Shown: positions 3,403-59,405 of the stretch, in pieces
Position numbering within the stretch: the first letter of the stretch is position 1
Layout of the letters: each line of letters opens with the position of its first letter
NCBI RefSeq assembly: GCF_000004825.1
Contig: NW_008805070.1
Coordinates: 124,001-188,000, forward strand
Direction: 5' to 3'
Origin: Heterostelium album PN500
Lineage: Eukaryota > Evosea > Eumycetozoa > Acytosteliales > Acytosteliaceae
DNA length: 64,000 nucleotides
Program-made: the position numbers and the translations under genes
Notes under the pieces: model-generated
What the model was told of the DNA's origin: nothing
The model's database searches: none
What the model saw: the letters and a program-made list of their open reading frames with translations, nothing else

Positions 3403-3488
3403 ATAAAAAAAACATTGTATTTATCTTTATATTATATTATACAAAATCTTATATTTATTATTATATATTCTATAAGCTATCTATCTAT

Positions 3489-21200: not shown

Positions 21201-23618
21201 GATTTAAATCCAATTTTCTATAATGCAAGTTATTATCGGTTCTTTAGAACTTTAGAAGAATCTGCGAATGAGAATTTCTATCGTCGTGGAGCAGGTTTGA
21301 TACTTTCGCATGACAATACTTTAAGCGACCGATTTGTTGGTCATGTTTTTGGTTTGAAATCAATGACGATCAATGCAAACGTAACTGACACCTGCTCGTT
21401 GACCAAAGTAGAACAACGATATGGCGCTCTACACCCAAATGATTCAACACTAAAGATAGGAGATGACTCCAATTTTGAAGCTGTCTATTCTTTACTGTTG
21501 CCACCGTACGCAGCCATCAGTTCGCTCGAGGTTGAATACGAGGGTAAACTTCTGGTTGCCACTATCAAAGAGAAAGAAACAGCTGCCAACGAATATAACG
21601 ATGCCATCGCCTCTGGAAACTCTGCATTCTTGGCATCGAAATCACAATCCGGTCAATTCCAAGTGTCACTCGGAAATATTGATATTCGATCCAGTGTGGT
21701 GGTGAGATTCACAGTGATGTCTGATGTTGGATATCATATGAATTACCTACAGTTCTGCTTGCACAGATTCTGGTTCCCACTTGGTCACTATCCAGTGAAG
21801 ATCACCATCGATCTCAAATTGAAGAGTAATTTCGATAAGTTCGAGGTCTCCAACTATCAATATAAAATTACCAAGACAACCGATAGCCTTAACAACATTA
21901 TAACTATTGAAAGTGAAGATGGTCTACCAAAGAATATTATGGTTATGGTGAGATTGCTGGAATCGGATGCACCACAGTCATTTGTTGAAACAAGTCCAGC
22001 CGATCCCAATCAATATGCTGTCGCCTTGAGTTTCAAACCAAAGTTGGATTGCGATTCGCTAAAGGTCAGACAGAAAGCAGAGTTTATCTTTGTTGTCGAT
22101 TGTTCCGGTTCGATGGAAGGAACTAGAATCGCATTGACCAGAAGAGTACTTCATTTCTTGGTGAGATCTCTGCCGTTTTCCTCTGTGAAATTCAACATCA
22201 TTCGTTTTGGAAGTAATTTCAACAAGATGTTTCCACAATCAAAGATCTATGACGACGATTCTGTTAGTGATTCAGCAATGTACATTGATAATAAAGTGCA
22301 TGCCGATCTTGGTGGAACCGAGCTCTATCAACCATTAAAGAGCATTTTGTCGCAAAAACACGACGCTGAATATCCGAGACAAATCATTGTGTTGACCGAT
22401 GGTGGAGTCTCTGGAAAGGGTCACCTCATTGATTTCGTAAGGAAAGAGGATTCAACATCGAGAATATTTACCGTTGGTATTGGAAATGGAGCTGACCAAG
22501 ATCTTGTTAGAAGTTTGGCTGAGGCTGGAGGTGGAGAATGTCGTATGGTTATGGAAAACTCTGAATTTTTTGAATCAGAAGTTCTTGAACTACTTTCGAT
22601 TTCACTACGTCCAAGAATTTCTAATCTGACAATGAATTGGCCAAATAAGAGTGAAGTAAAGGTAATTCAAGCACCTCGTAATATTCGTCCAATTTATCAT
22701 AATGAAAGAATGGTAGTCTATGGATTGATAACTTTGCTAAAACCTGAGGATTCAATGAAATCATACACTGTTTCACTTCAAGGTACAAGTCCAACCGGTC
22801 AGACTTTGACATATCCAATCGAGCTTGACTTACAGAATACCGATGGAACTGGATTGATGCTACATACTGCAGCTGCCACGATGTATATTGCTAGTTTGGA
22901 GTACGAGGAATCAAAGATCACCAAAGACAATAGCAAACCACACAAAAAGACAATAACGGAATTGGCTCTAAAGTATAATTTGGTATCAAACTACACTTCG
23001 TTTGTTGTTTCAGCTGACCGCGACCAACCAAACTACGAAACACTCAAACAAGTTAATATTCTAAACAATTTTGGAGAATTATACCCAAGACAAGGTGTTA
23101 AACTTGGCTCATCAGTACTCGTGAGTGCAGATAGGTATCAGTCTCAAGCGTCAAGCGGATGTTGTTCCGGTGGAAGCTACACTCCTCCTCCTCCTCCCCC
23201 TACAAAATCCAGCTTTTTCAATTTTTTCAACAACAACAACAACAACAACAACTCAACCACCCAAACCTCATCAACCACAACAACCCAAACCTCAACAAGT
23301 CAATCATCCAAACATAAAGAATTACTACTTTCAATTATAAAGTTGCAAAATGCCAATGGATCTTGGAGCGTCACTTCAGATACTAAAAAATATTTGACTG
23401 TTCAGTGTCCACTCAAAGAGATTGATAGTCAAGATGAATTGTGGTTGACAGTGTTGATCATTGCAATGCTCGAGAAAGACTTCCCATCAATGAAGGCAAT
23501 CTACTCCAACAGCATCTTGAAATCTAAACAATGGATCAATGACCAACTCCCACCAAACATCACCCTCGAAAAACTTTTGGAAACAGCACAATCATTAACA
23601 AAACAATCAAATCCATAA
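21201..23618 (+). CDS. VIT and von Willebrand A domain protein (first exon not located)
   Basis: A large exon of 805 codons begins after an acceptor (AAATAG at 21195-21200) with DLNPIFYNASYYRFFRTL, so an upstream first exon is missing from this call. Residues about 40-190 form a VIT domain. The VWA domain (about 295-470) has a complete MIDAS: VDCSGSMEG (D-x-S-x-S), GGTEL (Thr) and LTDGG (Asp). A Cys-rich CCSGG, a Pro run and an Asn/Thr linker precede a helical C-terminal region like that of VWA5/PARP4-type proteins. Such proteins are cytosolic or secreted and bind ligands through a metal ion; in dictyostelids the function is unknown. Confidence 0.85.
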   Translation, partial: DLNPIFYNASYYRFFRTLEESANENFYRRGAGLILSHDNTLSDRFVGHVFGLKSMTINANVTDTCSLTKVEQRYGALHPNDSTLKIGDDSNFEAVYSLLLPPYAAISSLEVEYEGKLLVATIKEKETAANEYNDAIASGNSAFLASKSQSGQFQVSLGNIDIRSSVVVRFTVMSDVGYHMNYLQFCLHRFWFPLGHYPVKITIDLKLKSNFDKFEVSNYQYKITKTTDSLNNIITIESEDGLPKNIMVMVRLLESDAPQSFVETSPADPNQYAVALSFKPKLDCDSLKVRQKAEFIFVVDCSGSMEGTRIALTRRVLHFLVRSLPFSSVKFNIIRFGSNFNKMFPQSKIYDDDSVSDSAMYIDNKVHADLGGTELYQPLKSILSQKHDAEYPRQIIVLTDGGVSGKGHLIDFVRKEDSTSRIFTVGIGNGADQDLVRSLAEAGGGECRMVMENSEFFESEVLELLSISLRPRISNLTMNWPNKSEVKVIQAPRNIRPIYHNERMVVYGLITLLKPEDSMKSYTVSLQGTSPTGQTLTYPIELDLQNTDGTGLMLHTAAATMYIASLEYEESKITKDNSKPHKKTITELALKYNLVSNYTSFVVSADRDQPNYETLKQVNILNNFGELYPRQGVKLGSSVLVSADRYQSQASSGCCSGGSYTPPPPPPTKSSFFNFFNNNNNNNNSTTQTSSTTTTQTSTSQSSKHKELLLSIIKLQNANGSWSVTSDTKKYLTVQCPLKEIDSQDELWLTVLIIAMLEKDFPSMKAIYSNSILKSKQWINDQLPPNITLEKLLETAQSLTKQSNP

Positions 23619-33973: not shown

Positions 33974-34294
33974 ATGACTAGTACTCATTTATGAAAACTA
34001 TAAACTTTTTTTATCAATCTTTATAAACTCAAGAATCCTCATGGATCATGATTTCTGCGATGTATTAAAATAAATCTAATTTTATAACTTTTAATATAAA
34101 GTAATACAATTAATAAAACGAAGTCACGTTGAATATAATGTTTAAATTTATTGATAGAGTTTTCATCTCGGTTGTTAACGATTATTATATATTAATTTTC
34201 AAATAATTAATTATACAGATATGATATCTCCATTCCTCTGCTTCTTTGCTATCAAAAAAACCATACTCTAAAAGACCATTCTGACTTTGTCTTA
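33974..34294. other. Non-coding spacer
   Basis: About 320 bp of A+T-rich sequence between the stop at 33973 and a minus-strand coding fragment. Nothing recognisable. Confidence 0.4.
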
Positions 34295-34637
34295 TTAAAT
34301 CGATTTTGTTCTTCTGCCCCATTGAGTTGGTAGACCATTTTTGAGATCATCTAAAATTTCATTATTGTCTATAGAATGGAAACATTCGTCAATATTTCCA
34401 CCAAGTCGAGGCAAAATAGGAATATTGGTTGTTGTGTGGTTGTAATGATGACGAAAGATGAAAAATCCATCATTAAAGTCTTCAGGGATCATTTGGGTAC
34501 CATAATAGTGATGATTTAAATAATGAAAGAACTGAGTACGCTCTAATGGATTAAAAGCTGTGTGAGGAGTCTTAAATTTAGAGCCTTGACTATGAACTAA
34601 TTCTTGGATGCACAGTAATATGAAGCCAAATTAGTTG
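34295..34637 (-). pseudogene. Minus-strand coding fragment without start
   Basis: An open frame of about 110 codons with no usable ATG at its head: FGFILLCIQELVHSQGSKFK, then FNPLERTQFFHYLNHHYYGT, IPEDFNDGFFIFRHHYNH and PRLGGNIDECFHSIDNNEIL, to a stop at 34295. Composition is clearly protein-coding. It is either an internal exon of an unrecognised gene or a gene relic. Confidence 0.45.
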
Positions 34638-34799
34638 ATAGATTTATAAATTTAAAAAAAAAAAAACACAAAAAAAAAATCTTAAAAAAAAAAAAAAAAA
34701 GTTTTAAGATTCGATCATTTCGATTTTGCATTTTCTGGGATTTATGTTTTTTTCTGAGTTGAAAAAAATCTGTCCCTATTAAATATGATTTTTTAAGAC

Positions 34800-34813
34800 C
34801 TGCCACCACGCTT
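34800..34813 (-). repeat. Right copy of the inverted 14-mer pair
   Basis: Reverse complement of AAGCGTGGTGGCAG at 32250-32263. Its minus-strand reading is ISKRGGRS, parallel to ISRKRGGRP at the left copy. It lies 64 bp upstream of the second F-box/LRR paralogue's ATG. Confidence 0.5.
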
Positions 34814-34877
34814 AGAAATTAAGTTGTTTTTTTTGGTCCATATATCACACAAATTTATTTCATTAACGAAACAATTC

Positions 34878-36466
34878 ATGTTAGCAATTGATAGCAACAA
34901 CAACAACAATTTATTTAATAGTTATATTCAGAGATTTATATTTTCAATATTATTTAATGATAGTTTATATTGTTGGAAATGGAGATTATACTTGAATTTG
35001 GTTTCAAAGAGGTGGTTCACTTTTATGAAATCTGAATTATTAGAAAGTTCAAAGAAGATAAAGATTCAATGCCAATCTTCTTTACTTTTCGTGGAGGATG
35101 AAGAGTATGATTATCATCATCTCATTAGAGATACTTGTGTATTCAGTGTCTATCCTTCAACTTCTACCAATAATAGCATTACTCTTGTTATTGATGCAAG
35201 TGTTATAGATAAATGCATCACGACAGCCACCAACAAAGAGAAAGCAAAACAAACACTCGAATTGATCGAGCAACTCTGGAGTAGATACAGAATACATATC
35301 AAGTGCTCGCTAAGATGCTTGCAAACTTCAGTACTCGAATTCATCCAACGAATGAATAAACCGATCGACATTGAAACTTGTGGTGTTACAGGACATATAT
35401 TGGTGGATGTTATCGATCGATTTCCAGAATTCACAGCAACCAATTTGGAAGAGCTCATCGATAATCCTGGGGAATATGATCTACTAAACAATCGACACCT
35501 TAAGAGACTCGACTGTTCTTCAGAGTACCAAATCACAAAGGAATTATCTATTCGCTCGACCTATTCATTGACTAGTTTCCATTATGAACTATATAATAGA
35601 GTCGAGAATGTAGATTGTGAAGTTAGATTTCTCAAACAATGTCCTCATCTTTCTAAATTTAAACTTTACATGTCATATGAAATCGTTTGCATCGAATCGT
35701 TGGTCGAGTTTATCTCAGAGTCGAAAACTCTCAAGAATGTTGTATTTCTCCATGACTTTGATGATTCTATTGTATCTGCTTTCATGATGAACAGCAACCT
35801 CAGAAAATTAAGATTTTCTAATCCTCGACAACACACCAAAAGCAATTGGAAAATTAACAAACAATTACCAACAATCATAAATACAACACTAAGATCTTTA
35901 GATTTTACAGTCAGACTTAGTTCAATTGATATCGATGATTATCAAATCTATATAGAGCCAACCAAATATTTTGTTAATCTTCAAACTTTGAAACTGGCAA
36001 TGCTTACTATCAATAGTCATGATCAATGGTTACAATCACTTGGTAGCCATACAACAGTTCAATATCTCTCTATCTCTCATGTACATATGCTACGGTGTCC
36101 AAGTGATTATCATAGTAGTAATGTATTCAAACAGATTCTCACAGATAGTACGACACTTAGACGTTTGTCATTACATGATAACTTCTTTGAATCATTCAAT
36201 GATCTCGATCATTTCATTCATTTAGTACATGAAAGTAAATCATTAGAGATACTTCATATCAACTCAAAGAAATACGATTACCTTATCTCCAATCTGAAAC
36301 AATTCGAATATATTAGTTCAAATAGATATACTGGGCGTGTTTTAAAACATTATAGTAAGTAATTATATCATATAGTTACTTTAACAAATAACACAATCTT
36401 CTAACAATAAAAATTTGTTTATTTACCATAGGAAGAATCAAAAGCAATGATATTCAAATCACTTGA
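34878..36466 (+). CDS. F-box/LRR-like protein, paralogue 2
   Basis: Exons 34878-36354 and 36432-36466 give 503 residues. The ATG at 34878 (MLAIDSNNNNNLFNSYIQRF) is preferred; upstream open frame lacks ATG. LVSKRWFTFMKSEL is the F-box-like helix shared with the gene at 30133. Irregular LRRs follow, and the last exon encodes only RRIKSNDIQIT, with the intron at the same place as in the paralogue. Sequence similarity between the two is modest but the layout is the same, so this is an old duplication. Confidence 0.75.
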
Positions 36467-36796
36467 TATTAGATTTAATATGCTACTTGTTAACAATAAA
36501 TGTGTGAATAATAAATGTGAATATTTATGTGAGGAACAAATTTTTGTTTATATTACCAACATCAATTATCACTATGAAATGGTGGGATCTGGTATACTAG
36601 TAGTTAAAAAAAAGTTGAAATCATCATCAGTGTTAAAATTAATATATGTGTTTCTATTTTCAGAAAAGCAGTATGAAATTCACTCTGCAATAGTTTTTAA
36701 ATTGATATCTGTAGGTAAATAATAAAAATTTAATTTTATCGGATTCTAACAATTAAATAATAAATAATAGTTTTAATTGAAAAAATATCAAAAAAG
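36467..36796. other. Spacer with a dubious 91-codon frame
   Basis: A plus-strand frame from 36447 to 36722 overlaps the end of the previous gene. Its first part is an out-of-frame reading and its later part (YITNINYHYEMVGSGILVVK) has only weak coding character. I leave it uncalled. Confidence 0.35.
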
Positions 36797-37147
36797 ATGA
36801 AGATTTATCTTTTTTTTTTAATGTTATTTCTTATTGGAATGGTAATTTGTCAGAGTGATGACGATAATGAAGTTTGTGGACCTGTTTCACTTACAATAAA
36901 GCCAGAAGATAAAAAGTATTACAATGTTAATCTCAAAGGAAAGATGTGTTACAAACATTTCTATTTCAAATTCTACCAAAGTGATATGGAGTATTTTGAA
37001 CTCTATAATCCATGGATCAACAGAGAAATGAATGTAGACTCTATTTTAATTGTCACCAATAATACTAAATTGAAACTAATCAAAAATATGGTGTTTATTA
37101 AAGATACCGATGGTCTCTATGAAATATTTATAGTGCCCAGACATTAG
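36797..37147 (+). CDS. Small secreted protein
   Basis: A 116-residue single-exon protein. MKIYLFFLMLFLIGMVICQS is a clear signal peptide with a plausible cleavage near CQS. The mature part is about 96 residues with two Cys (VCGPVSL and KMCYKHF) that could form one disulfide, and a beta-rich look (LTIKPEDKKYYNVNLKGK). Family unknown. Confidence 0.65.
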   Translation: MKIYLFFLMLFLIGMVICQSDDDNEVCGPVSLTIKPEDKKYYNVNLKGKMCYKHFYFKFYQSDMEYFELYNPWINREMNVDSILIVTNNTKLKLIKNMVFIKDTDGLYEIFIVPRH

Positions 37148-37477
37148 AATAAACCAACTGTATAAAAATAAACAAAAATTAAATTAACTTTAAAAATCAT
37201 TTCAAAAAAACTGATTTAATTAAATTTAGACAAAAATCAAAAAAAAAGGTGGTGTGAACAAACAAACAAAAAATGATTTTTCCTTTTTTGGTCGCTGAAT
37301 GAAAAAAGAGATGTATGTTTAAATCATTGTACTAAAATCAAATCTTCAAAAGAAAAATATGGGTTTTAAAAAGAATTGTTGTTTTAAATTCAAATAATAT
37401 AGATAACATACATATACAAATAAATATCTTTGATATACATATAAATATAATTAGTTAAAACTAACAAGATCAAGATA
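37148..37477. other. Promoter region of the RdRP fusion gene
   Basis: 330 bp of A+T-rich DNA with A runs, between the stop at 37147 and the ATG at 37478. No other feature seen. Confidence 0.4.
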
Positions 37478-40400
37478 ATGTATTCATTCTGCAAGAGGTG
37501 CAGAAGTAAATTCATTCCTACAGATCAACTATGTTTGTTTAGAGAGGCTAACGGTGGTGCTCATCTAGCAATAAGATCAACAAATACAACAACAACATCT
37601 CAGAGTGATGTACCTGTTGAACTTAATTATAAAGGCAGCAATACCAACAATGATCATTGTAGTAGTAGTAGTAGTAGTATTAGTAGTAGTGACCGAATCT
37701 CAGTTGCTAAAGATCAGATCGATAATGACAATGCCGATTTCTATCTGGTGGAAGACCTCCGAGGAAGAGCGCAGATACCATTCAAGATACTCCATAGACA
37801 CTGTCAATACGAGATAGGTAGTGTCATCCGAAAGTTTGGTGATCGTTACATGTTCTGTTTGAATCCGGATTCCATCTCTTTGAGTCAGACCTATCTAGAG
37901 GATAGCAACTCCGCCGCCGATGTCGGTACTGCCGCCGCAAATGGAGTTCCTACAACCGTGGTCGCCAATAAGAAATGGAGATCTTTCGATAATCAATATT
38001 ATTCAGATCTAAATATTGAAGTTATCGAGAGTGTCGATGTCTATCAAGAGAATTCTTCACAGTTTGCCAATAACAAAGAATCAATCTCCAACAACAACAA
38101 CAATAACAATAATAATAATAACAACAATCAAGATGATTTAATCTATATGCCAACAAAGATACCAGATACCATTTCATTCTCATTGATGTCATTGCTAAAC
38201 ATTCAAGATCTCTATGATTTTCAAATTGAAACACTTTACAGAGCAACCAAACGTAATACTATTTTAGTTGTTCCAACAGGTATGTTTGTTTTTAATTTAA
38301 ACTTGTCAGAATAACATCCATCTTATTTGAATTCTAAATATACATATATATATATATATATATATAGGATATGGTAAAACAATTGTATCTATTCTTTTGA
38401 TGAAACAACTACATCCTTTGAATGGAAGATTACTCAATGAGATGACTGCCAAGAGAATGATATTGTTTGTTGCAGATCGTGTCCCGCTCGTAAGACAACA
38501 GTGCGCTGCCATTCAGTATCATGTCGGGTCGGAATTCGTGGTTTCTTCGATTCACAGTGGCGAGCGATCCGATTTCCAGAGTGCCAATGTCAGACGTCCC
38601 GACGTCTTGGTGTGCACTTCCGACTCGATCTTGAATCTTCTCCACGGAAAGGTGTTGAAACCGATCGATTTCTACTTGGTGGTCTTTGATGAAGCGCATC
38701 ATTGCGGTGGTTCGCACTCGTATTCACGTCTCGCCAAGTTACTACAATCGATTGGCGACGAACGGCTGCGCCCGCGCATCTTTGGTATGACTGCTTCGCC
38801 TACGACTGGAACACGCTCCAATATGAGGATATCGATGGTCGGTCTAGAAAAGGAGATGGGCGCATCGCTCTACATTCCACCGTCGATCGATATGGTGCGC
38901 AATCAGACCGACACCACGGTGATGTCGATCGTTGAATACCGGCTGAGTAACGCCGATTGCCTGGTGATCGACGTCATCGAGCAATCGATCGTTCAGATCA
39001 TCGAGTGTTTTCTCAGAGAGTTGGATAACTATAGTAACCCTCTGAAGTATGCCCGAATGAATAGGGGAGCTTTTATCTTTCATTGTCGTGTTCTGGAGAG
39101 ATATGTCTTCGAACGCAAACTCGTTCATCTGAGTTATCATCCCTATCATCTAACACAGTTACTCGAGTTGATTTCACTCATTGAGTTGGAAGGACTGGTT
39201 AAACTACAACAACAACTGGTCAACAAGATCGAAGAGCAAGAGAATCTAGCATTCAAGTCGACACTCGAAGAGATTAGTATAGCAGTAAACGAGATAATGA
39301 CAAGTTGTTCATCCAGTAGTAACAGTACTATTAGTAATGAAATAGCTACTTCTACAACTCCTACTACTTCAGATAACCAGTTGTTTAAAACTAAACTAAA
39401 ACTGTTGGAAGAGATTATCGAACAGAATCTTAATGATTCTTTATCGGCTATTATTTTCGTGCAGACAAAGACAACAGTGTCGAGTGTACTTCGTGCGCTA
39501 AAGAAGAAACATTTCAACAGTTTTCTACATGCTAAAAAGTTGATTGGACATTATATGGCGGATGGTGGAATGGATTTGGAGGAGCAGCAAGAGATACTAG
39601 CGAAATTTAAGGATAATGAATGTCGACTGCTTGTTGCCACTTCTGTACTTGAAGAGGGTATCGATATTCCTGCTTGTAATCTCATTATTTGCTTCGATGA
39701 CGACTTGCAGCTGCGCTCGCTCATTCAACGTCGTGGACGTGCACGTTCTGCCAACAGCAAGTTCTATGTGTTCAAACAGTATAGCGATCCCAATCGTTTG
39801 AAAAACCTGGCGTATCGCGAGGTATCAATGCAGAAAACCATTGTTTCACTGAACCGCAAGCACCAGAGAAAAGCCGACAAGTTTGACTCGCGCGATATCC
39901 TTCAAAAGTACCAGTCCTACATCGTCAGCAATATGATTGCTCTCGATGGAACACTGGTCGATAACACCAGTGTCAATACATTGATCTTTATCTTTTACTA
40001 TGTGTCGCCCGATGTAGATTACTACCAACTATTCACATCGAACGGCTATCGAATCAAACAATATCAACCTATCAACAGTGGTAACAAATACTTGGCCATG
40101 AGATTGATGGTTTCCATTGAGACTTCAACGACCGTTACCAATTTGATAAGTTTACTTCAATCGATATTGAATCAACAGAGATATATTATCGATATCAATT
40201 ATAAGAAACCACAACCACAAAAACAATTACAATCACAAAAACAATTACAACAACAAGACAAACAACAACAACAACAACAACAACAAACTTATTTATCAGG
40301 TATTCCAATTAAATTACAAGGTGGTAATTTCATTGATCAAATACAATTCTCATTGGCATGGGAACACTCTGTTACTTTGTATGTAAAGAACGGTCATTTA

Positions 40401-43400
40401 TCATTCCGTCATCAGACCAATGGTGGTAACAGAACGGTTGAGGTTGTAACTATACAATCGGATCTATTCCATCGTGTATTCTACGATATTGAGACTGGTT
40501 ACCACTATCTCATTTTGAATCGTCCATCAAGAATATTGGTATTAAAGTCTGGTGCTGTTGTCGATCGTCTCGGACAACTACCCTACACAAAGCGATCCAC
40601 TCCTCCCACACTTGTCTATAGATTCAAACTCGCCGGACAACGCCACAACCTCATCTCTGAACTACTCAATATTCCACTAGTCTATTGTTCATTCTCAACC
40701 ACAACACTTCCAATTGAAACATTCAAAGCGAAAATAGAATATCAATTTCCAAAAGAGATAACTTATTTATTATCTGTATTAGAAAGGTAAAAATAGTTAA
40801 TAATAATAATTATTAAAATAATTTCCACTTTAACTAACTAATTATTTCAAAAATATTTTTTAGTAATCATAAATTTGGAAACTTGATTATTCCAAAGGAA
40901 TTCTATGACGATATATATTATTTGTTGGCGAATGACCATGTCGAGCAAGCAGAGTATATGATATTCTGTGCGATCGATGCATCTCCTTTTAGTTGTCCGT
41001 CTTGGAACAATATTCCACCGCGTGCCAAATCCAACGTGAAGCCACTCAATGCCAATTTCTGTTGGATCAAGAAAGCCTATGTTACACCGAGTCGTATCTT
41101 GTTCCAACGCCCGCTTATGGTTCAAACCAATAGAGCGATTCGTTTGTTTGGACCGGATCGTTTCCTCATGGTGCAAATCACCGAGGAGACAATCAGTGAC
41201 TCGATCGACTATCAACCGCTGATCTCCAAGTTGATGTTGGATAAGCTTATCGATGGAATAGCTGTTGCCGGTTACGGACAATATCATTTCCTCGGTTACA
41301 GTAACTCGCAGCTGCGAAAGAATACCTGTTGGTTCTACTGTCCCGATGCCATAGATTCACTGGACGATGCACCGTCACTCGATGACGTCAAACAGATTCT
41401 CATAGGTGACACATCGATCTATACGGAACCAAGACAATATCTTCGTTCACTTTCCTTGGTATTCCCTTCGACCACGCCATCTCTGTTGATTCCGGCCGAA
41501 CACATCCACGAAGTGCCCGACGTCGTCAGTGCGAACACCGGTCAGATTTTCTCGGATGGAATCGGTTATATTGGCAAGCGTGTTGCACTCCAAGTGATTG
41601 AATTTGCCTCGCTTCCAGAGGAGACCTGTGCATTCCAGATTAGAATAGCAGGATACAAAGGTGTCGTGACAATTCATCCGACGATCGACGACGGAATCTA
41701 CTTGCGTCCTAGCATGAAGAAGTTCCAAGCGGATCTGACACAGCAGCACAATTGCATATTGGAGATAATCAGTATCAACGGAGACAATCCTTGTCATCTC
41801 AATCGTCAGGTGATCAACTTGCTCTCGGGACTCGGTGTTCCCGACCAGTATTTCCTGCGGCTACAAAAAGAGGCGCTAATGGACTTGGCCGATCTGCTCC
41901 ATAATCCTGCCGAGTCGATTCGATGCTCCGAAGACTTGCCATGGCTTCGCACCATTGAAAAAGAAGATCTCCGATCGGATCCGATGATTCGTTCGCTCGT
42001 CCATCTCGTCTACCAAAAGAGTATTGCTGAGTACAGTGATAAATGCTTCATTCCCATTGCCAATGGTAAGACAATCATCGGTGTATTGGATGAAACAGGA
42101 TTGCTTGAAGCCGGACAAGTCTATATCAATATTTATAATACCAAGAATGGCCAATCCATGGTGATTCAAGGTGCGGTTGCAGTGTGTAAGAATCCTTGTT
42201 TGCATCCGGGTGACGTTCGTATTCTTCAAGGTACCGACATTGAGTTGTTGAGTCACCTGAAGAATGTCGTTGTGTTTTCAGCGCGTGGCGACAATCCTGA
42301 TTTCAAAAAGTGCAGTGGCAGTGATTTGGATGGTGACCGTTACTTTATTTGCTATGATCCCGAAGTCATCTCAACGGTGCGCCAATACGAAGACTACCAC
42401 TATGAGGATCCAATCAAAGTGAAACAAACGATACCCATCAATCAAAGCACAATATTAGCACAGTATCTTAAATCCATTGATAAAGGTACGCTCGGTAAGA
42501 TTGCGCTCTCTCACTTGGCTGTCAGTGACAGACTGACTCCTCTCGATCCACTGGCTATCGCTCTGTCGATTCAACATTCGATTGAAGTCGATTCTCCTAA
42601 GACTGGAGTACATGGTAAGCTGCCTGAGGATGTCAAGAATGTCATTGGTGACTTTGAGAGTTTTCCAATGTTCATGGAAAAGTCACTGCCCAACAAAAAG
42701 TATTGGAATAGCAGGAAAATACTTGGATTGATGTACGACCAGTGTAAACAGATGCATTCAATTACCGGTGTGGTCGAACGTAACTACGATCCTAACAAAC
42801 TCGTTGATGGATATCACCAGTATTTGGATTCAGCTACCAAGACATACCATCAGTATCAGCACAACATCCGGTTGCTGCTCAGTCGCTTTGGCATTGAAAC
42901 CGAACAGGAAATCATTGTGCAGTTCATCGATTACTGTCAGGACGCAGATAGTATCAACAAACCGATGATTAAAGAGGCATTCAAAAACTATGTACAGATA
43001 CAACGACAGTTCCAGATTGATTTCATGGTTGAATTCCAGCCGGAACCTCACAAAAAGCGTGATATTATCAATCGAAAAGTATCGGCATACTATCATTGTG
43101 CTTATAAGGATCAGAAACATCCACTCTACAGTTTCTATTGGATTGTTAAACAATTCTTTAATAATGAAGTGACCATAAGTTCGACAACTGCAGGTGCAAG
43201 TGAATCACCGGCTGTTGTTGTTGGCAAACCAATTGATATCGTTCATTACTTCACTATCAATTCATTGGAGATGTTCAAGATCTATACCAATCGATTGCAG
43301 TTGGTAACATCGATTGAGAATATACTGAGGGCGTATCATCCTGGTCTTAGAGACTGTAGAATTGGAATCTACGGTTCACAATCGATGTTCCTCTTCAATG

Positions 43401-46400
43401 AGTCATCCGACATTGACTTGTATCTCAGCATTCCAGAGGAATCGGAACTAAGTGGTGCCAGTCAGATCTCCATCTACAAGATATTGGAATCGATATTCAC
43501 CAACAATGACATCGATGTCAAGAATATCGAAATCATAGAGAATGCACTCTTCCCTATCGTCAGATTCCGTATGCTTCACACCAACTGTGACTTGTCCCTA
43601 GATGACAATGGTTTCAAGAAGACCAAATTGATTTGTGAATACTTTAAACAATATCCATTCTTACTTCCATTATCGTATGCAATCATCCAATGGGGTAGAG
43701 AAAGTGGATTATTAACTGGATGCAACAATAACATCAACATCAACAACAAAATCAACAACAACGATAATAATAATAATGGTGACTCAGCAAATAAGGTTGA
43801 AAAAGTTAGAACACTTAAAACATGGTCATTACTGTGGATGGTTATACACTTTTGTTTACAATGTCAAATTATACAAAAGATTGATTTCGATGAGCAGGCT
43901 TACCAGGCGAAAAAGCAGATCGATAACAATCCAGTTCAATGGTGGATAGATCTGTATCAAGCGATTCAAATTCCCGATGGCCATGCACAGCTGCTGAGCG
44001 AATATCTTCGTAGTTTCTTTAGATTCTACATTGAATTCTTGGGTACTAGCATCTACTCGGGAATAAGAATGGTCGTTGTATGTCCACTCGATGTGGAAGA
44101 TGTTCCCAGTCTGGTTGTGACACCCGATTCCGTCTATCTCTTTGAAAGCTTCCAGATTGCCTATCACACATTGTCGTCCAGTAGCAACATCACCTCGTTC
44201 CTCAGCAAATCATTGAACCACAATGTCAAGCATATCAACCTGGACAGTCGTATCTCCAAGATCATCAGAGAACAGGAGGAATACTTTGAGAGTAAGATCA
44301 GCGCTAAGACAGGAACGAACGTCGTCCTCCAGAAACTCAACGGTAAGCGCTACCAGATTCGGGTGGAGGGTGATCCCTATGCGATACAGTCGGCCGTCCA
44401 AGAGATATCGGATCTCGCACACGAAGTATCGCGACTTCCCGTGCGTACACAAATCAACTTGGTCACTGGAGGTGGCAGCATATTGCTAATCCAAGGCTGC
44501 ACCGACCAGAATGAAACACTGAAATTCGTCGATCTCAAATTGAAACACATCCAGGTGAACATCTACCATTTCTTCAAACGGCCATTCCGACCGATTCTTT
44601 TGCGTTCACCCAGCTCCAAGACCGCAGCTAAAGCCGAGGAATCCTATTTGGAATTCGGTGCCGCTTACTACCGCCAGATGGAACGTGTCTACAAGTATTA
44701 TGATCCCGATGAATACGGAGAGATTCGTGCATTCCTCAGGTTTGGATCGGTCTATATCTTCAATGTTCCGTACAACGGATTCCAAAAGAGTGTTGCCGAT
44801 ACTCGTAAATCTCTGTATGCTCCCGGTAGTAGGAAAATGGTATCATTCAACGAACAAAAGGTTACACTACCCATTGAGACAACAAAGATTATTGCCAAAC
44901 AACGCAATCAGTTGATTGTTAACAAAATGAAATCTGTAATTCCGTTGGATCATTTAATAGCGCCACCCATAATGGAATCTGATACACCTGATTACGGATC
45001 TGAAACAACCCCAACAACCACATCGATAGTACCAACTCCACAATCACCAACATCAACAACAACAAATAACAACAACAACAACAAACAAAAGAAATTCAAG
45101 TCAATAGAAAACAAACCGACACAACATCAATTATCAAATTCCAGTACTAATTCTCTTACAATTCCTACACATAAAACAAACATAACAAAACCAAAAAAAG
45201 AGAAACAGGATCACAACAACAAATCAAAGAATTTAACTAAACAGGACAACACTTTAATCACACCCAAATCCACCAATACGATTACTATCGCCAATCCATC
45301 ACCACCACAAAAACAACAAGAATCAACTAAATCCAAATCATCTAAGCCAAAGGTGTGGGTACCTAAAACCCAAAACAATACAACCGCTCGACCAACAACA
45401 AATATACCTCATCCAGATACTTCAAATACCACAACAATTACTAGCGATATACCAAAACGTGATCCAACCAAAAACAATCAAGATACACCTGTAATAACTT
45501 CAACTACCAATGAACCATCAACCACTCTAAATACAACAACGATTTCAGAGAATAACAATACACCAACAACAAAATTACTGTCTATAAATGCACCAATCTT
45601 CATACCAAAAGTACAACCACCACAACAAAAAGTACCGGCAAACAATCAACCAACAATTGAACAACCAATTCAACAACAACAACAACAAACTCTACAACAG
45701 AAACAACAACAAACTCTACAACAGAAACAGCAACCAAATGTCTCAAATTCAACACAAGTTAAGCAATCCAACAAATCAAAACCAAAATGGAAACAACCTA
45801 AATCTAAATCCAAAAAAACAGCAGCAAAAACAACAATAATCACCAACTCTTCAGTAAATCCAACAAATCTATCCAACCTTACTACACCAAAACCAATTGC
45901 AAAACCAAATGTCTCCAATGTTGCTCCTAGTAATACTGACGAAACATCGGTTGATATTGGTGGCAGCAAAGTACGATCTATGAAACTCAAGATTGACTTT
46001 AGCAAAGAAGAGCATAAGGGTATCTATACTGCAAAGAATCCAAAATCATCGTTTGCTGTCTATATTGTCGATTACGACGAAACAATGAGGAGGTTACAAT
46101 CTTTAGGCTGGAGTGTTGTCGATACTCCCAATCTACCGCAGGATTTCGTAAGTGAATTCTACTCCGTGTCATTCTTCAATTTCGCCAAAAGAATTGAAAT
46201 GAAAATCTGGGCGGATACCGACCTCAACACCTACAGACTCGGTAACACCAACTTGGGATGGCTAACCAGTGACTACAAGACCAACCAAGATAAACTGGAT
46301 GTCCGTTACTCCATTCAATCAAAGAAAGTCTACTGTGAGAACTCTTATGAATACCAGAAATATATGAACAAACCTATAATTCAATTCAATAACAATAATA

Positions 46401-46890
46401 ATAATAATAATAATAGTAATAACAATAAGAAGGTAGAGCAACAAGAAGTAAACAACAATAATATCGATGATCCACTTCAAGAACAACCGATAGCATCTGA
46501 AGAGGTAGTCAGCGATGAACCCGAGAAGAAATTTATTATCGCGCCAGAGTTTAGAGATTCAGTTTATCTGATTAGACATCATTTTGAAATCAAAAGATTG
46601 AAACCACCCCCAAACCATCCGCTGTCTGATTATAATCTTGGTGCTACCATCAGAAAGAGTCATGAATTTACCAATGAAGGTATACTCTACAATGTAAAGT
46701 CGGAATTAGAAATCGAATTGAACATTCCTAAACAAGAGAATATCCACAAATTCATATTGTTGTATTGGTAATTATTTTTCATTAGTTTTAAAATATGTGT
46801 TTACTAACAACACGCGTTTTGATATATATATAAAAATATAGGGAACTTGGACAATCATTACTCAACCTATTAAATCTTGAACAACAATAA
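37478..46890 (+). CDS. Helicase-RdRP-nucleotidyltransferase fusion, RNA silencing
   Basis: Four exons (37478-38279, 38368-40786, 40864-46767, 46842-46890) join in phase into 3,057 residues. Order: (1) residues 1-200, possible RIG-I-CTD-like zinc module (FCKRCRSKF, LHRHCQYEIG, KKWRSFDNQYYSDL). (2) Dicer/RIG-I-type helicase: PTGYGKT 266-272, DEAHH 375-379, MTASPT 408, ATSVLEEGIDIP 691, QRRGRARS 721. (3) DUF283-like segment near 790. (4) RdRP: FSDGIGYIG 1303 and catalytic SGSDLDGD with Asp 1561, 1563 and 1565. (5) Cid1-type nucleotidyltransferase: GS 1911-1912, DID 1923-1925, Asp 1983, then TLKTWSLLWM 2057. (6) KH-like segment, long Thr/Gln/Asn linker (about 2450-2760) and an unknown C-terminal domain. 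It is related to dictyostelid helicase-RdRPs (Rrp family), which act in small-RNA amplification. No RNase III or PAZ domain is present. Confidence 0.92.
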
Positions 46891-47317
46891 TTTATAAATG
46901 ATAGAATACATTAAATAAATAAATTAGTATATGATATATTACAAATGGTTTTGTACCGTACATGAAAGAAATAAAGATGGTCTCCAAATCGACACATATG
47001 AAAAAACAGAAGCAAATTAAAAAATTTGAGTGGTCGTTGAATGGAATTAAACCTATATCCTAATTAGACATACTTGTTTTAAAGGTGATAAAAAAGTATA
47101 TTTTTTCTTTATATTATATACCAATTATAATTGTTTCGTTTTTAAAGATTATTGAACTTTTGTTTTGTGAAAAGATTTAAGATAACTATTATTTTTTCAT
47201 AATAATTTTAAAATATGGTCCATATGGATATAAAAATTATTTAAAATAAAAGTGTTACTAATTATTTAAAACATTTTCTTATTTTTTATTTTTTGTTAAA
47301 CAATATATTCTTATTCA
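46891..47317. other. Intergenic, upstream unit U1 of duplicated gene
   Basis: 427 bp. The part 47100-47240 (ATTGTTTCGTTTTTAAAGAT, CATATGGATATAAAAATTAT) recurs upstream of the second copy at about 51065-51100 and 51575-51592, showing that the promoter was duplicated with the gene. Confidence 0.7.
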
Positions 47318-49468
47318 ATGGAATATAAAATATTAAATAAGATAAGGATTGATAATCCTTTAGTTATTCTCAAAGAAACCAATGCTACACCTTCTTTTAT
47401 CTTTTATGCATATGGTAACAGTGTTGTAAAATATGACATTATTCAAAATAAAAGATACATTCAACAATATGGAAGATATCAAATCACTCATTTAATTGAA
47501 TCTTGCAAACATTCATCATCTTCATTCTACATTATCAATAAAAATAATGCAATCTATAAATACAATATTAATAATAATCAACAAAAAGAAAGAGTAGAAG
47601 TTGCTTATCATTTAAATCAATTATCAAACTGTCCGATCATATATATAGAATCACTAATTGATGATAGATTGTTAATTCATTATCAAAATGAAGATAATAC
47701 ATCGAAATGCTACTGTATTTATGATTTGCATTCAAATGATATCATATATTCTAAATCAAATATAAACAAAATCATTGTTGTCAGTTCTAAACATGAATGT
47801 TGTCAGTTCATTGAACAACAAGAGAATAGAGTAAACCTAGTTACTTTCACCTTCGATAGTAGAGAATGTTTAGAGAAAAGTAAAGAAGTTAATAATGTCA
47901 AAGATGATATCCTTGCTTTATATGGCAGTGATATTGTGTTTATCATTCATCAGGATCATTTAGAAATGACGTTATGGAATATCAATGATAATAGTTCAAG
48001 TGTTGTTTCGATTGATCAGCAACAACCACAAATACCAGCTAAAACAATTAAATCAATTAAACTTATAGATAACAATACTATCTTCTTTGAATTCATTGCC
48101 TACAATAATGAATTGTCATATTCATTGTTCAGTATTAAAAATGGATGGAGAAATATCAATATAAGCACAACAAATAGTGATAACAACTTTCAATCGATTC
48201 TTTTATCGAATGAATATCTAGTTATATCAAGAAACAATCAACCAAATCAACTACAAATAATATCATTGCAATATGGAGAAGTCGATAAACGAATGATCTT
48301 TGATGATCAAATGGAATCAGAGATATTATCAATGAATCATATTGGTGCATCTTTGTTACTTGTTGAATGTAAAAAATCTCTTTTTGTATTAAGACCAAAC
48401 AATTCAAACAACATAAATAACAACAATGACAATGATTATCTCTCACAAATCAAATTATCAACCAAACAATATGATCAAATCAAAACAAGAGAGATTATAA
48501 CAAATATCTTAAAAAATAACAATATTAATATTGAACAATTGAACTCTATATTCACAGTTTTAAAAGAATCATCATTGAAATCGGAATCAAGATTATTCTC
48601 GTTGCTTTGTTCAAAGCTAACGAATGATACTAAATACCTATCGGTATTTAAGAATCAAAAATGTAAATCAAGATTGATTGTTGGTGATGGTGATTTCTCG
48701 TTCACGATGGCATTGATCAATAAACACAAATCAACACACCCATTGCTTGCCAACTCTCTTACCACCTCTGAACTCTCAATGTCTCCATTCAAATCACATG
48801 AAATCAACTCTCGAATGGAACAATTGAATGAACTTGGTGTTCGAACCATTGTTGGACTAAACTCCAACGACATCTCAAATGTATTTCAAGGTCAGCGATT
48901 CAAGCGTATTCAATGGAACAATCCTTGGCCGTTTTGGTCATTAAGTATCTACAAGAATTACATCAGCTCAGTACTACCTTCTTTCTATGTATCGGCATCG
49001 CAATTACAGCAGCCAGGTGATCGTATCCACATGACCCTTGTACAGGGGAGTGAAGATTTTAAATTCCGTCAAATGGAGAATCCATTGGTTCGAGCTTCAT
49101 TCCGTGCCAACTATCGTTTGATTAGAAAACGTCGACTCAGTAATACTAGATATCCAGGATATTTTCATCATTACACTGGATTGGCTCAGAAATTGATTGG
49201 AGATTCCAAACGTGAGTTCATTTTCGAAAAGGTTGACCCAAAAGAGACAATGGAAATCAACAATTTCACACAGGATTGGGATGAGATCAGAGTTCAAGCT
49301 ACCAAACTCAGAGATACCAACAAAAAGTATTATGAAATCAAACCACATGAAAAGATAACCCGTATGGTTCAGAATACAGAGGTAACATTGGAAGATAACT
49401 ATTTCGATTGTAGTACTGATGATGATTCCTCTGACTATTTCGAATCTGGAAGTGATAGTGATGACTGA
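47318..49468 (+). CDS. Propeller plus BMT5-like (DUF2431) protein, copy 1
   Basis: A single-exon 716-residue protein. Residues 1-400 are repeats of beta-strand-like segments with YN/W ends (VVKYDIIQNKRYIQ, MTLWNINDNSSS) that suggest a degenerate beta-propeller. From about residue 450 a Rossmann-type methyltransferase region of the BMT5/DUF2431 family starts with SRLIVGDGDFSFTMAL, followed by FKRIQWNNPWPFW and GDRIHMTLVQ, with a Tyr-Pro-Gly-Tyr-like RYPGYFHHYTGL near the end. BMT5 proteins methylate uridine in 25S rRNA; here the usual FNFPH is changed (WNNPWP), so activity or substrate may differ. The C-terminus is acidic. Tandem paralogue at 51679. Confidence 0.78.
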   Translation: MEYKILNKIRIDNPLVILKETNATPSFIFYAYGNSVVKYDIIQNKRYIQQYGRYQITHLIESCKHSSSSFYIINKNNAIYKYNINNNQQKERVEVAYHLNQLSNCPIIYIESLIDDRLLIHYQNEDNTSKCYCIYDLHSNDIIYSKSNINKIIVVSSKHECCQFIEQQENRVNLVTFTFDSRECLEKSKEVNNVKDDILALYGSDIVFIIHQDHLEMTLWNINDNSSSVVSIDQQQPQIPAKTIKSIKLIDNNTIFFEFIAYNNELSYSLFSIKNGWRNINISTTNSDNNFQSILLSNEYLVISRNNQPNQLQIISLQYGEVDKRMIFDDQMESEILSMNHIGASLLLVECKKSLFVLRPNNSNNINNNNDNDYLSQIKLSTKQYDQIKTREIITNILKNNNINIEQLNSIFTVLKESSLKSESRLFSLLCSKLTNDTKYLSVFKNQKCKSRLIVGDGDFSFTMALINKHKSTHPLLANSLTTSELSMSPFKSHEINSRMEQLNELGVRTIVGLNSNDISNVFQGQRFKRIQWNNPWPFWSLSIYKNYISSVLPSFYVSASQLQQPGDRIHMTLVQGSEDFKFRQMENPLVRASFRANYRLIRKRRLSNTRYPGYFHHYTGLAQKLIGDSKREFIFEKVDPKETMEINNFTQDWDEIRVQATKLRDTNKKYYEIKPHEKITRMVQNTEVTLEDNYFDCSTDDDSSDYFESGSDSDD

Positions 49469-50992: not shown

Positions 50993-51678
50993 TTAATTTA
51001 AATTTTTCTAGATGAATTATTCTCAAAAAAAAAAGAATTTTTATTTAATAAAATTTATTTTCTTTATACCAATTATTATTGTTTCGTTTTTAAAGATTAT
51101 CGAACTTTTGTTTAGTAAAAAGATATATTACAAATCAGACAAATTTCTTAATATCTCTATGGTTGATGATAAATATAAAAACAATATGGATAAAGTATAC
51201 TATTTGAGTTGAATAGATATGAGTTGAATAGATATAACTTGAATAAAATAATTTTTCCTCTTTTTCTAAAGAATATTAATAAAAAATTCTACTTGTACTG
51301 ACTTTGAAAAATAGATTTGACAAAAATAATAATTTTGAGATTGAATTGCATAATTAATTAATATTTATGATAAAAATTTGAACAGTATTTTTTTGAAAAT
51401 ATGACGATGATATCCTATGATATTTTTAGGGTTGAACTAGTTTCTGAAATTTTATTTTACTTAGATACTTCAGATAGATAATCCAAATTTTTAACCACAA
51501 AAAAAAATCTTTAATATTATGAGGTGATATTTTTATCTCAATAGAAATTAATATATTAATATTATATTATATGGATATAAAAATTATTTAAATAGAAAGA
51601 GTTAATATTTAATTATTATAAATATTTATTATTTTTGATAAAACTCCTAAAGTTTTGTTAAAAATATATTCTTATTCA
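50993..51678. other. Upstream unit U2 of the second copy
   Basis: Non-coding DNA between the NUMT and the second paralogue. 51050-51130 and 51515-51679 match the region upstream of copy 1, separated here by about 380 bp of extra sequence. A 66-codon frame at 51012-51212 is just this shared promoter sequence read as protein. Confidence 0.6.
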
Positions 51679-53835
51679 ATGGAATATAAAATATTAAATA
51701 AGATAAGGATTGATAATCCTTTAGTTATTCTCAAAGAAACCAATGCTACACCTTCTTTTATCTTTTATGCATATGGCAATATCTTGGTAAAATATGACAT
51801 TATTCAAAATAAAAGATACATTCAACAATATGGAAGATATGAAATTACTCATTTAATTGAATCTTGCAAACATTCATCATCTTCATTCTACATTATCAAT
51901 AAAAATAATGAAATCTATAAATACAATATTAATAATAATCAACAAAAAGAAAGAGTAGAAGTTGCTTATCATTTAAATCAATTGACTAATTGTAGAATCA
52001 TAAACATAGAATCACTAATTGAAGATAGATTGTTAATTCATTATCAAAATGAAGATAATATTTCGAAATGCTATTGTATTTATGATTTAAATACAAATAA
52101 TATCATATATTCTAAATCGAATATAAACAAAATCATTGTTATCAAATCTAAACATGAATACAACCTCATTGAGTTCAACAACAACCATGTCTATTTAGTT
52201 AAATTCAACAAAGAAGAAAGAGAATATAGAACAAACAAAAAAATTGAAATTTTAGATGGTATTTATGATGTCAATTCATCTTGTAACTCTGAAAGTGGAA
52301 TTGTTTTTATCATCCACCAAGATCAATCAAAAATGACATTATGGAATATCAATGATAATAGTTCAAGTATTGTTTCAATTGATCAGTCATTTAAATCAAT
52401 TAAATCATATAATAGTAATTCTATATTATTTGAATTTAAAGAATCTTTCTCATTATTTAATATTGAAAAAGGCTGGAATCATCTAGCTGATAGAGATTGT
52501 AATAATGAAAATATTCAATCTATTCTATTATCAAATGAATATTTAGTATTAACAGGAACCAATCAACCAAATGAACTACAAATCATATCATTAGATGATA
52601 AAGACATTGACAATAGAATAATATTTGATAATCTAATGGAGTCAGAGATATTATCAATGAATCAAATTGGTGAATCTTTGTTATTACTTGTTGAATGTCA
52701 AGGATCACTTTTAATTCTCAGACCGAACAATAGAATCAACATTAATATCGACAATGATTTTCTTTCTCAAATCAAATTATCAACCAAACAATATGATCAA
52801 ATCAAAACAAGAAAGATAATAACAAATATCTTTAAGAACAATACCAACGTTGATAGTGAACAATTGTATGAAATATTCACAGTTTTAAAAGAATCGTCAT
52901 TGAAATCGGAATCAAGATTGTTCTCATTGCTTTGTGGAGAGTTAACAAATGATAATAAATACTTATCGGTATTTAAGAATCAAAAATGTAAATCAAGATT
53001 GATTGTTGGTGATGGTGATTTCTCGTTCACGATGGCTTTGATCAACAAACACAAATCAACACATCCATCGCTTGCCAACTCTCTTACTACCTCTGATCTA
53101 TCGATGGCGCCGTTACAGTCGGAAAAAATTCAGTATAAGATGGAACAACTGAATAAACTGGGTGTAGAAACCCTGGTTGGTCTGAACGCTATCGATATCT
53201 CTGGTCTCTTTCCAAACGGACGTAGATTCAAGAGAATCCATTGGAATTGTCCTTGGACCAATTGGTCATCGGACAACTTACTGACCAACTATGACAATCA
53301 TTTGAAGTCGGTGGTTACCGACTTTTTCGTTTCGGCGTCACAGCGGCAGTTGGCAGGCGATCGCATCCACATGGCGCTGATCCAAAACAAGGAGAACTAC
53401 AAAGCCAGACAAATGGAGAATCCAATCGTTCGTGCTTCATTCCGTGCCAACTACCGTCTGATTAGAAAACGTCGATTCGACAACACCAGATATCCAGGCT
53501 ACATTCACTTGTTTACTGGTCTCTATCTTGAGCATCCACAAATATTGAAATATGAATTCGTATTTGAGAAGCTAGACAACATCGTCAAGGGTATCAATAA
53601 CTATACACTCGATCCGAAAGAGATCAGTGAACAAGCTGCCAAACTTCAAGATACCAACAAAAAGGAGTATCAAGTCATACAAGAATCAACAGAGATAACC
53701 TTAACAAGAACCAAACAACATGTTTTAAAATTCAACGATAACTATTTTGAATGTAGTTCTGATGAAGATTCCTCTGATTATTTCGAATCTGATGGTGATG
53801 ACAATGATGATGATGATGATCAATTTTTTAATTAA
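51679..53835 (+). CDS. Propeller plus BMT5-like (DUF2431) protein, copy 2
   Basis: 718 residues from the ATG at 51679 (MEYKILNKIRIDNPLVILKE), which aligns with the start of copy 1; eight further in-frame codons upstream begin with TTG and are ignored. The 5' third is nearly identical to copy 1 at the DNA level, silent sites included. The middle has many changes and indels, and the methyltransferase region (SRLIVGDGDFSFTMAL at about 460) is similar in protein but partly different in DNA. The 3' region 53095-53520 is much richer in G+C than the same part of copy 1. The acidic tail is longer (DDNDDDDD). Confidence 0.78.
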   Translation: MEYKILNKIRIDNPLVILKETNATPSFIFYAYGNILVKYDIIQNKRYIQQYGRYEITHLIESCKHSSSSFYIINKNNEIYKYNINNNQQKERVEVAYHLNQLTNCRIINIESLIEDRLLIHYQNEDNISKCYCIYDLNTNNIIYSKSNINKIIVIKSKHEYNLIEFNNNHVYLVKFNKEEREYRTNKKIEILDGIYDVNSSCNSESGIVFIIHQDQSKMTLWNINDNSSSIVSIDQSFKSIKSYNSNSILFEFKESFSLFNIEKGWNHLADRDCNNENIQSILLSNEYLVLTGTNQPNELQIISLDDKDIDNRIIFDNLMESEILSMNQIGESLLLLVECQGSLLILRPNNRININIDNDFLSQIKLSTKQYDQIKTRKIITNIFKNNTNVDSEQLYEIFTVLKESSLKSESRLFSLLCGELTNDNKYLSVFKNQKCKSRLIVGDGDFSFTMALINKHKSTHPSLANSLTTSDLSMAPLQSEKIQYKMEQLNKLGVETLVGLNAIDISGLFPNGRRFKRIHWNCPWTNWSSDNLLTNYDNHLKSVVTDFFVSASQRQLAGDRIHMALIQNKENYKARQMENPIVRASFRANYRLIRKRRFDNTRYPGYIHLFTGLYLEHPQILKYEFVFEKLDNIVKGINNYTLDPKEISEQAAKLQDTNKKEYQVIQESTEITLTRTKQHVLKFNDNYFECSSDEDSSDYFESDGDDNDDDDDQFFN

Positions 53836-57691: not shown

Positions 57692-59405
57692 TCACCACCT
57701 CAACTGTTCAAATAATTCATTTAAATTATTGGTCATCGTTACAACCCGACTATTGAAAATAAGAAAGTATTGTTCATCTAGTTTTCGAATGTCGATTATT
57801 ATATCTCTACTGAGTCGTATTAGTGTGTGATTAACTTTGTATGTATTCGGTATGTTGGTCAGTGATCCTGATACGATTAGTTTTTCGATTGAGCTTGGAA
57901 TGATTTCTTTTAATAAATTGATTCCTTGCTCAGAAGTAATCAATTCCTTAACTGTGCTTGGCAGAAGATCCAATCTCTTGATGCTAGACGGCTTGGCAAC
58001 TGTTATTGTGGTGACTGAAGATGGTATGCTTGACGGGTCGTCGATTCGTAGCGAAGAATCTAAAGTAAGCAGCTTAACACCAAATGGAATCTTAATTAGT
58101 TTCAGTGAAACATCATCATCGTCGTCACCAGTGAATCGAAGCTTCAGTTCACGAATTTTCAAATGGCTGATATCGTCTTGTTTCGTACCACTGAGAATCA
58201 ATTTCGTAAAGTGATATTGTGATCTCTCTGGGAATATCTCATCGATATCGTAATTGGTATAACAGATATTCAAGTGTGTGATTGTGGATGGCATTCTTGA
58301 CTTTAAAGTTGTATTGACCGTGTTGATAGATAGCCTGGTTAGGTTGGGTGGAAGTTGGTCAAGATCGAATATTGGAACGCTTTCATTCTGATAGAATTTC
58401 AAACCTTTGATATTCGGTAGAAGTCTGATTGCGGCGATCCACGATACCGGGGCATTGGTGAGTGTGTATAGTGTATTAGGTAAAACACCAGTTTCTTTGA
58501 TGACAATGTCGTGTCCAGAGTAGTGGAGAACCTCGAGTTTTGGCGGTAAAGATCCAACCTCTAGTTCATGTTTAAATAAATGATTGAGTTTCAGTATCTT
58601 GAGTGACGGAGGTAAAGCTCCTGGCTGAATGGGTTGGTTGTACCTGTAGTTGAGCTCTAATTCCTCCAATGTATTGGGTAGCTGACCGATTCCAAACACT
58701 TGATTAAACGATGGTCCTAACTTTAAAATCTTCAGAGAAGCTGGCAGGAATCCAGCTGTTAACGGTTCATTGAAATGAATATCGAAACTGATACAAGTCA
58801 GATTGTCAGGTAGTTTCATCGATAACGATTGAACATGTCTTAGAGTAGTCACATTTGAATTGGTGATCAATTTGTATAAAGCAGAAGTAGTAGTATAATC
58901 CATTTCCTCTCTATCATTGTACGGAATAGAAACAGTATTGATATTCGATTGAATAGAATCAATAGAACATAATTCACCTAAAAAAAGAAACATGTTAAAT
59001 GTGATAATCAAGAAAAGTAATTAGAAAAAGCAATACAATAAGGAAAAAAATAATTATTTTAACTACATTACCTAAAGAAACAACATAATCAGGGGTACCA
59101 CTTTTATTCCCAATAGATAGTGTTGCATTACACTTTTGATTAATCGATTGTATCAACCTGGATTTATAAGAATTTAAAAAAATACTATTACATTGTTGTA
59201 CTTTTGATATATATAAATGTTTTGTGTTGAAGGTAGCTATCAAACAATCTCTTTGGTCGAACCATCTCTTACAAACTAATGTAAAGAATATTTTATCAAT
59301 ATTATCATTTAATTCATCTATTATCCTTTTCAGTAGTATATATGATAGATTTACAAAGATATTATTCACATTTGAATTATTATTATTATTATCGTTGGAA
59401 TTCAT
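57692..59405 (-). CDS. F-box and FNIP-repeat protein
   Basis: Exons 59405-59072 and 58977-57692 give 539 residues. An F-box-like region starts the protein (LLKRIIDELNDNIDKIFFTL, then VCKRWFDQRD). FNIP-type repeats follow: LPASLKILKLGPSFNQ, LPNTLEELELNYRYNQP and LPPSLKILKLNHLF, each about 22 residues, then more diverged repeats to the end. FNIP proteins are hugely expanded in dictyostelids; the F-box suggests a role as a ubiquitin-ligase adaptor, with FNIP repeats binding the target. The ATG at 59405 (MNSNDNNNNN) is chosen; an in-frame extension upstream to 59498 is less likely. Confidence 0.85.

Follow-up and report, generated by a model that had tools for sequence, protein, structure and literature searches.

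A predicted single-chain fusion of helicase, RNA-dependent RNA polymerase and nucleotidyltransferase domains in Heterostelium album

The RNA-copying enzymes of yeast and ciliates partner with helicases and tailing enzymes, and why tailing is needed is poorly understood. A gene of Heterostelium album PN500 raises the question of whether these activities can be carried by one polypeptide, and of what a nucleotidyltransferase (NTase) would do on the same chain as an RNA-dependent RNA polymerase (RdRP). The gene lies in a stretch of 64,000 nt, called the window here; positions given without a contig are those of the window, and all features of the gene are on the forward (+) strand.

Gene model and the second copy

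The whole gene is located at 37478-46890 and was deduced to have four exons (37478-38279, 38368-40786, 40864-46767 and 46842-46890, the last of which includes the stop codon). Based on the splice sites, the reading frame and the intron positions common with a paralogue on contig C27, a spliced coding sequence of 9,174 nt was predicted, which would encode 3,057 residues followed by a stop. The chain consists, in this order, of an SF2 helicase, a cellular RdRP, a Trf4/TUTase NTase, a KH-like stretch and two conserved regions of no known fold, and the order is common with the C27 paralogue. All three introns have GT...AG borders. Intron 1 (38280-38367, 88 nt) splits the Walker A motif between PTG and YGKT and is absent from the paralogue; intron 2 (40787-40863, 77 nt) separates the helicase half from the RdRP half, and a paralogue intron lies in the same Ser codon and the same phase; intron 3 (46768-46841, 74 nt), near the C-terminus, corresponds to a paralogue intron in the same Trp codon, also in the same phase. 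According to the splice junctions, frame and motif positions, the three introns, the length of 3,057 residues and the motifs were all as the first-pass annotation of this DNA had given them. Its central claim, one polypeptide with a Dicer/RIG-I-type helicase, an RdRP and an NTase, was borne out by Pfam matches above the cut-off, PDB matches and hhalign, and the HMM search of the 3,057-residue protein that it had proposed found DEAD, Helicase_C, RdRP and MTPAP-like_central in Pfam.

The coding sequence from the RdRP through the NTase to the C-terminal region is contained in a single exon (exon 3), within a stop-free frame of 1,977 codons. When the exon 3 stretch (5,934 nt) was simulated by a first-order Markov model in 300 replicates, no stop-free run exceeded 229 codons, as against the 1,977 of the real sequence.

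The fusion was found in both RdRP genes detected, which goes beyond the first-pass annotation, as do the further conserved regions after the NTase. In the genome searched (32.9 Mb in 39 contigs, with match counts being lower bounds), PF05183 gave three matches, namely one in the window and two that are exons of one C27 gene. This paralogue (C27:34250-42348) was spliced by hand into the exons 34250-37308, 37376-38081, 38161-42188 and 42264-42348, and its product of 2,625 aa has the same domain order as the window gene. Identity between the two, taken by segment, ranges from 23 to 42%: it is 34% in the helicase, 23% in the post-helicase region, 41% in the RdRP, 30% in the NTase palm (138/141 aligned) and 28% in the KH-like stretch. 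The C27 gene has kept PTGLGKT, DEVHH and QRRGRARN in the helicase, SGSDLDGD in the RdRP, and GS, SDLD and CD in the NTase. Two of the three window introns have positions common to both genes; window intron 1 and a C27 intron within the RdRP are private. The fusion is therefore older than the duplication, and in both genes the motifs of each of the three active sites have survived strong divergence.

Catalytic domains and the remaining regions

The helicase (38195-39785, residues 240-740, with intron 1 inside) is of the SF2 DExH, RIG-I/Dicer type. Pfam matches were obtained at residues 249-726 (DEAD, PF00270, 1.7e-16; Helicase_C, PF00271, 3.3e-22), and the RIG-I/Dicer-type motifs I, II, III and VI are all present: PTGYGKT at residues 266-272, split by intron 1, DEAHH at 375-379, MTAS, and QRRGRARS at 721-728. 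When the PDB was searched with a query starting downstream of motif I, the matches, among the best 60 of 125, included RIG-I (3.1e-25), LGP2 (1.2e-24) and Dicer homolog 1 (5.9e-24). By its motifs, and by having its best similarity to RIG-I, LGP2 and Dicer among those 60, it is placed with the RIG-I/Dicer-type SF2 helicases. It is nearer to RIG-I/Dicer and Dicer-related helicases and is not of the Hrr1 type. DRH-3 of C. elegans, a Dicer-related helicase acting with RdRPs, is the closer helicase parallel.

The RdRP core (41081-42745) matches PF05183 over its full length (positions 1-582 of 582; E 9.8e-130; 434.4 bits, cut-off 23.8) and contains the catalytic SGSDLDGD at residues 1558-1565 (nt 42314-42337). 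This full-length core with DxDGD assigns it to the cellular RdRP family, and its PDB matches are to cellular RdRPs, including RDR2 and QDE-1, which we take to be of the plant type (RDR) and fungal (QDE-1), respectively.

The NTase palm (43283-43642) was recognized both by Pfam and by a PDB profile search. It covers positions 19-137 of 139 of MTPAP-like_central (PF22600; 52 bits, cut-off 27; E 1e-13), a family found in both members of the window/C27 pair. The superfamily has a catalytic triad of two Asp in D.D after GS, plus a third Asp. In the window gene GS is at residues 1911-1912, D1923 and D1925 lie in SSDIDLYL, and a third Asp, D1983, lies in NCDLSLDD (nt 43373-43426 for GS and the Asp pair; within 43583-43606 for the third Asp); D1923, D1925 and D1983 are the triad. 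With GS, D.D and the third Asp of the palm at residues 1911-1983, the domain qualifies as a Pol-beta terminal NTase, and the conserved catalytic residues make NTase activity likely. A two-sequence NTase profile matched Tailor (3.2e-8), poly(A) RNA polymerase protein 2 (1.6e-6) and CutA (1.6e-5) in the PDB. By sequence profile, their palm likewise carries GS, the Asp pair and the third Asp; they are stand-alone enzymes, whereas the NTase here is fused and has no detectable PAP_assoc. In an hhalign comparison, two canonical NTases encoded elsewhere in this genome were matched (94.7%, E 5.8e-8, 145 columns) as far as query column 253 of 571, through LKTWSLLWMVIH; the match covers the palm and first central helix only.

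The second half of the NTase (43643-44242) is a helical part with LKTWSLLWMVIH and CPLDVEDVPS, and it is 42% identical to the paralogue (189/220 aligned). PAP_assoc (PF03828) was not found by Pfam at E<=1 in either the window gene or the C27 paralogue, compared with six matches genome-wide. Since PAP_assoc, by which the Cid1 family is recognized, was not detected, the NTase was classed as Trf4/TUTase-like and not as Cid1-family. The first-pass annotation had named a Cid1-like transferase at residues 1850-2160: the range was correct by PF22600, the PDB profile and hhalign, and the Cid1/Trf4-like palm with all three catalytic Asp stood, whereas the Cid1-family PAP_assoc domain went undetected. 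A search of the genome for a stand-alone source of this NTase gave nothing beyond the gene itself, its C27 paralogue and a weak match at C9:1914963 (E 0.01).

The remaining conserved parts are less readily assigned. The N-terminal region (37478-37912) has CxxC at residues 5-8 and a later HxHC, and is 29% identical to the paralogue (158/230 aligned); it is possibly zinc-binding, as judged from these residues. It has no Pfam family, and no PDB match was obtained with the paralogue alone or with a trimmed two-sequence profile. The idea, taken from the Cys pattern, that it is a zinc domain like the RIG-I C-terminal domain received no Pfam or PDB support and was rejected. A tentative KH-like stretch (44294-44410, residues 2218-2256) follows the NTase: KH_1 scored 12.8 bits in the window gene and 12.4 bits in the corresponding part of the paralogue, both below the cut-off of 21.5, and a vigilin KH was matched at 0.0074 in the two-sequence PDB profile search. 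After it comes a conserved region of no known family (44411-44902), with GGG..LL..GC and LRFGSVYIF, which matches only the two RdRP genes in the genome. A low-complexity linker (44903-46012, residues 2421-2790, about 370), rich in N, T, Q, K and P, aligns to the paralogue over 133/370 residues and leads to the C-terminal conserved region (46013-46887, residues 2791-3057, with intron 3 inside), which is 40% identical to the paralogue (158/267 aligned) and likewise matches only the two RdRP genes in the genome. This last region has no family in Pfam, and its best PDB match was moeA at 0.62. The sub-cut-off Pfam matches SecM_small (0.0066) and PRC2_EED_ins (0.13) were discarded; they fall on an Asn-rich stretch of the window copy and are missing in the paralogue.

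Known systems and the RNAi setting

The helicase-RdRP part of the fusion is already known, and the NTase is its new part. In the excerpts of PMC4791657, helicase-RdRP fusions are reported from Dictyostelium, peronosporomycete oomycetes, Hydra and Nematostella, and in those of PMC3661229 the Dictyostelium proteins RrpA-C are each large and combine helicase and RdRP, in agreement with what the first-pass annotation had stated of the Rrp proteins. In the gene described here, too, an SF2 DExH helicase precedes the RdRP on a single chain, which is the dictyostelid Rrp architecture, and RrpA, RrpB and RrpC would by inference come from the same organism group. The D. discoideum proteins were compared by description only, and that description, as excerpted, gives helicase and RdRP and leaves an NTase unmentioned (PMC3661229). 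The oomycete, Hydra and Nematostella fusions also have an N-terminal DExH helicase with Helicase_C and then the RdRP; their Pfam diagrams carry no NTase, and "nucleotidyl" occurs 0 times in that text (PMC4791657). No description of a helicase-RdRP-NTase fusion was found in the open-access library searched, which agrees with the first-pass statement that the full fusion is not known to have been described. Relatives were sought in viral contigs (48 pattern-matched stretches) and genome contigs (127), where none was confirmed by tblastn, and in phages, where none was found; eukaryotes are few or missing in these collections, which are therefore silent on other dictyostelids.

The RNA-dependent RNA polymerase complex (RDRC) of S. 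pombe, to which the first-pass annotation had likened the protein, has the same activities, with an RdRP (Rdp1), a helicase (Hrr1) and a PAP-family NTase (Cid12) physically joined. Cid12 is described in an excerpt as the PAP-family component of RDRC (PMC5322907). The S. pombe components are separate subunits, and Hrr1, according to the excerpt, is orthologous to the SF1 helicase ZNFX-1, whereas the window helicase is SF2 of the RIG-I/Dicer type (PMC9276528); the likeness to RDRC thus held by activity and failed by subunit. Because of this difference between SF1 and SF2, the window gene does not qualify as an RDRC by orthology to Rdp1, Hrr1 and Cid12, and the parallel is one of activities, not of subunit families. 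For Tetrahymena, Rdn1 and Rdn2 are reportedly nucleotidyl transferase subunits, a term from the title of a cited reference. The Tetrahymena RDRC likewise has an RdRP with such subunits, Rdr1 co-purifying with Rdn1 or Rdn2, and recruits Dicer; it differs in that the subunits are separate and that the co-purifying proteins named in the excerpt include no helicase (PMC6562869).

Two Dicer-type loci, deduced from four RNase III matches (two per locus), and two Piwi genes were found in the genome. No helicase was detected within 10 kb of the Dicer loci with a profile of the two RdRP helicases (best E 0.38), and neither locus is among the 15 genome-wide helicase matches. According to excerpts of PMC4894637, the D. 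discoideum Dicers have no helicase, the helicase being encoded instead in the RdRPs, and the helicase-free Dicer loci fit this published arrangement.

Other helicase genes were observed in the same genome. On C3:138001-148000, two adjoining genes (frames 1-2418 and 4785-6734, +) each encode an SF1 Sen1-like helicase (AAA_11/AAA_12) with an MTPAP-like NTase, a second kind of helicase-NTase fusion; the Sen1 match of the second is 8e-68, and PAP_assoc lies inside the first frame and, for the second gene, in the next frame. A RIG-I-type helicase that carries a dsRNA-binding motif, on C33 at about 231-235 kb (frames 28-2694 and 2707-3459, +), continues into a tyrosine/serine kinase domain. The match to that domain breaks at profile position 56, where either an intron or a frame break divides it between the two adjoining frames. 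The C33 helicase has a close relative on C7, at about 1,659 kb (1165-3468, -), which also has a dsRNA-binding motif and whose layout resembles that of D. discoideum HelF as published (PMC4894637, in excerpt).

Proposed function, its alternatives and neighbouring genes

The one spliced frame, the Pfam and PDB domain matches, the C27 paralogue, the helicase-free Dicer loci and the two Piwi genes together led us to consider it moderately probable that the gene encodes an RDRC counterpart in a single chain, which would couple unwinding, 3'-end addition and second-strand synthesis. Counting against it are the undetected PAP_assoc, the limitation of the hhalign match to the palm and first central helix, and the origin of both genes from one genome. 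In the scheme proposed, the helicase would load onto or unwind the target RNA, the NTase would add nucleotides to a free 3' end, either that of the template, from which copying could then start more readily, or that of the newly made strand, second-strand synthesis would be the task of the RdRP, and the duplex would be handed to Dicer proteins that have no helicase of their own. We infer that all three sites work, and likewise the substrate and nucleotide of tailing, the order of the steps and the hand-over to Dicer.

The NTase might instead tail the products, for example by adding U to siRNAs or to duplex ends made by the RdRP, so that passenger strands or small RNAs are marked to be turned over or sorted. 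The nearest PDB match of the NTase profile is a uridylyltransferase, Tailor, and a Paramecium RdRP paper mentions, in excerpt, siRNA that is oligouridylated alongside an accumulation of antisense siRNAs (PMC12876857). However, Tailor is simply the nearest solved relative, nucleotide specificity is unreadable from these sequences, and fusion to an RdRP fits template and product tailing alike; we regard product tailing as unlikely, if still deserving some weight. A catalytic role of any kind would be absent if the NTase and KH-like parts were an RNA-binding or scaffolding module for assembly or 3'-end recognition, a reading to which the undetected PAP_assoc would be congenial, as would the better conservation between the paralogues of the second half of the NTase (42%) than of the palm (30%). 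It is distinctly improbable, given that GS and all three catalytic Asp are retained in both genes though the palm is just 30% identical. That two adjoining genes were read as one, through an error of gene model or assembly, has next to no probability and is largely refuted: the helicase-RdRP junction does rest on a predicted intron, but the RdRP to the C-terminal region is one stop-free exon far beyond the simulated maximum, a helicase-RdRP fusion is already published for Dictyostelium (PMC3661229 and PMC4791657, in excerpt), and the second gene, on another contig, repeats the domain order and the junction intron, which argues for a gene family and against a misjoin.

The single-chain RDRC reading, if extended to the whole group, would mean that the dictyostelid RdRPs are such complexes family-wide, fused before the two-gene split, with the NTase of RrpA, RrpB and RrpC overlooked by older domain models and tailing built into dsRNA synthesis; we hold the chances for and against this extension to be about equal. 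The fusion described here also suggests that the domain layouts published so far for dictyostelid RdRPs may not be complete. Being kept in two diverged genes, it indicates that unwinding, copying and tailing are parts of a single machine and are fixed one to one, and with one recombinant protein, or a single gene in organisms amenable to genetics, the part that tailing plays in silencing could be tested by a point change.

No RNA families or tRNAs were found in the window. Upstream of the fusion gene, a weak TNP-like RNase H match (12817-14274, +; 20.8 bits, cut-off 24.6) is in a frame overlapped by that of an RNase_T exonuclease domain (14246-16021, +; 30 bits, cut-off 24), and a gene with VIT and VWA domains is located at 21201-23618 (+). 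Downstream are two genes with BMT5-like rRNA methyltransferase domains (47300-49468, +, 2.5e-25; 51622-53835, +, 2.8e-28), both with long N-terminal parts of no assigned family, and a gene with FNIP repeats at 57692-59020 (-).
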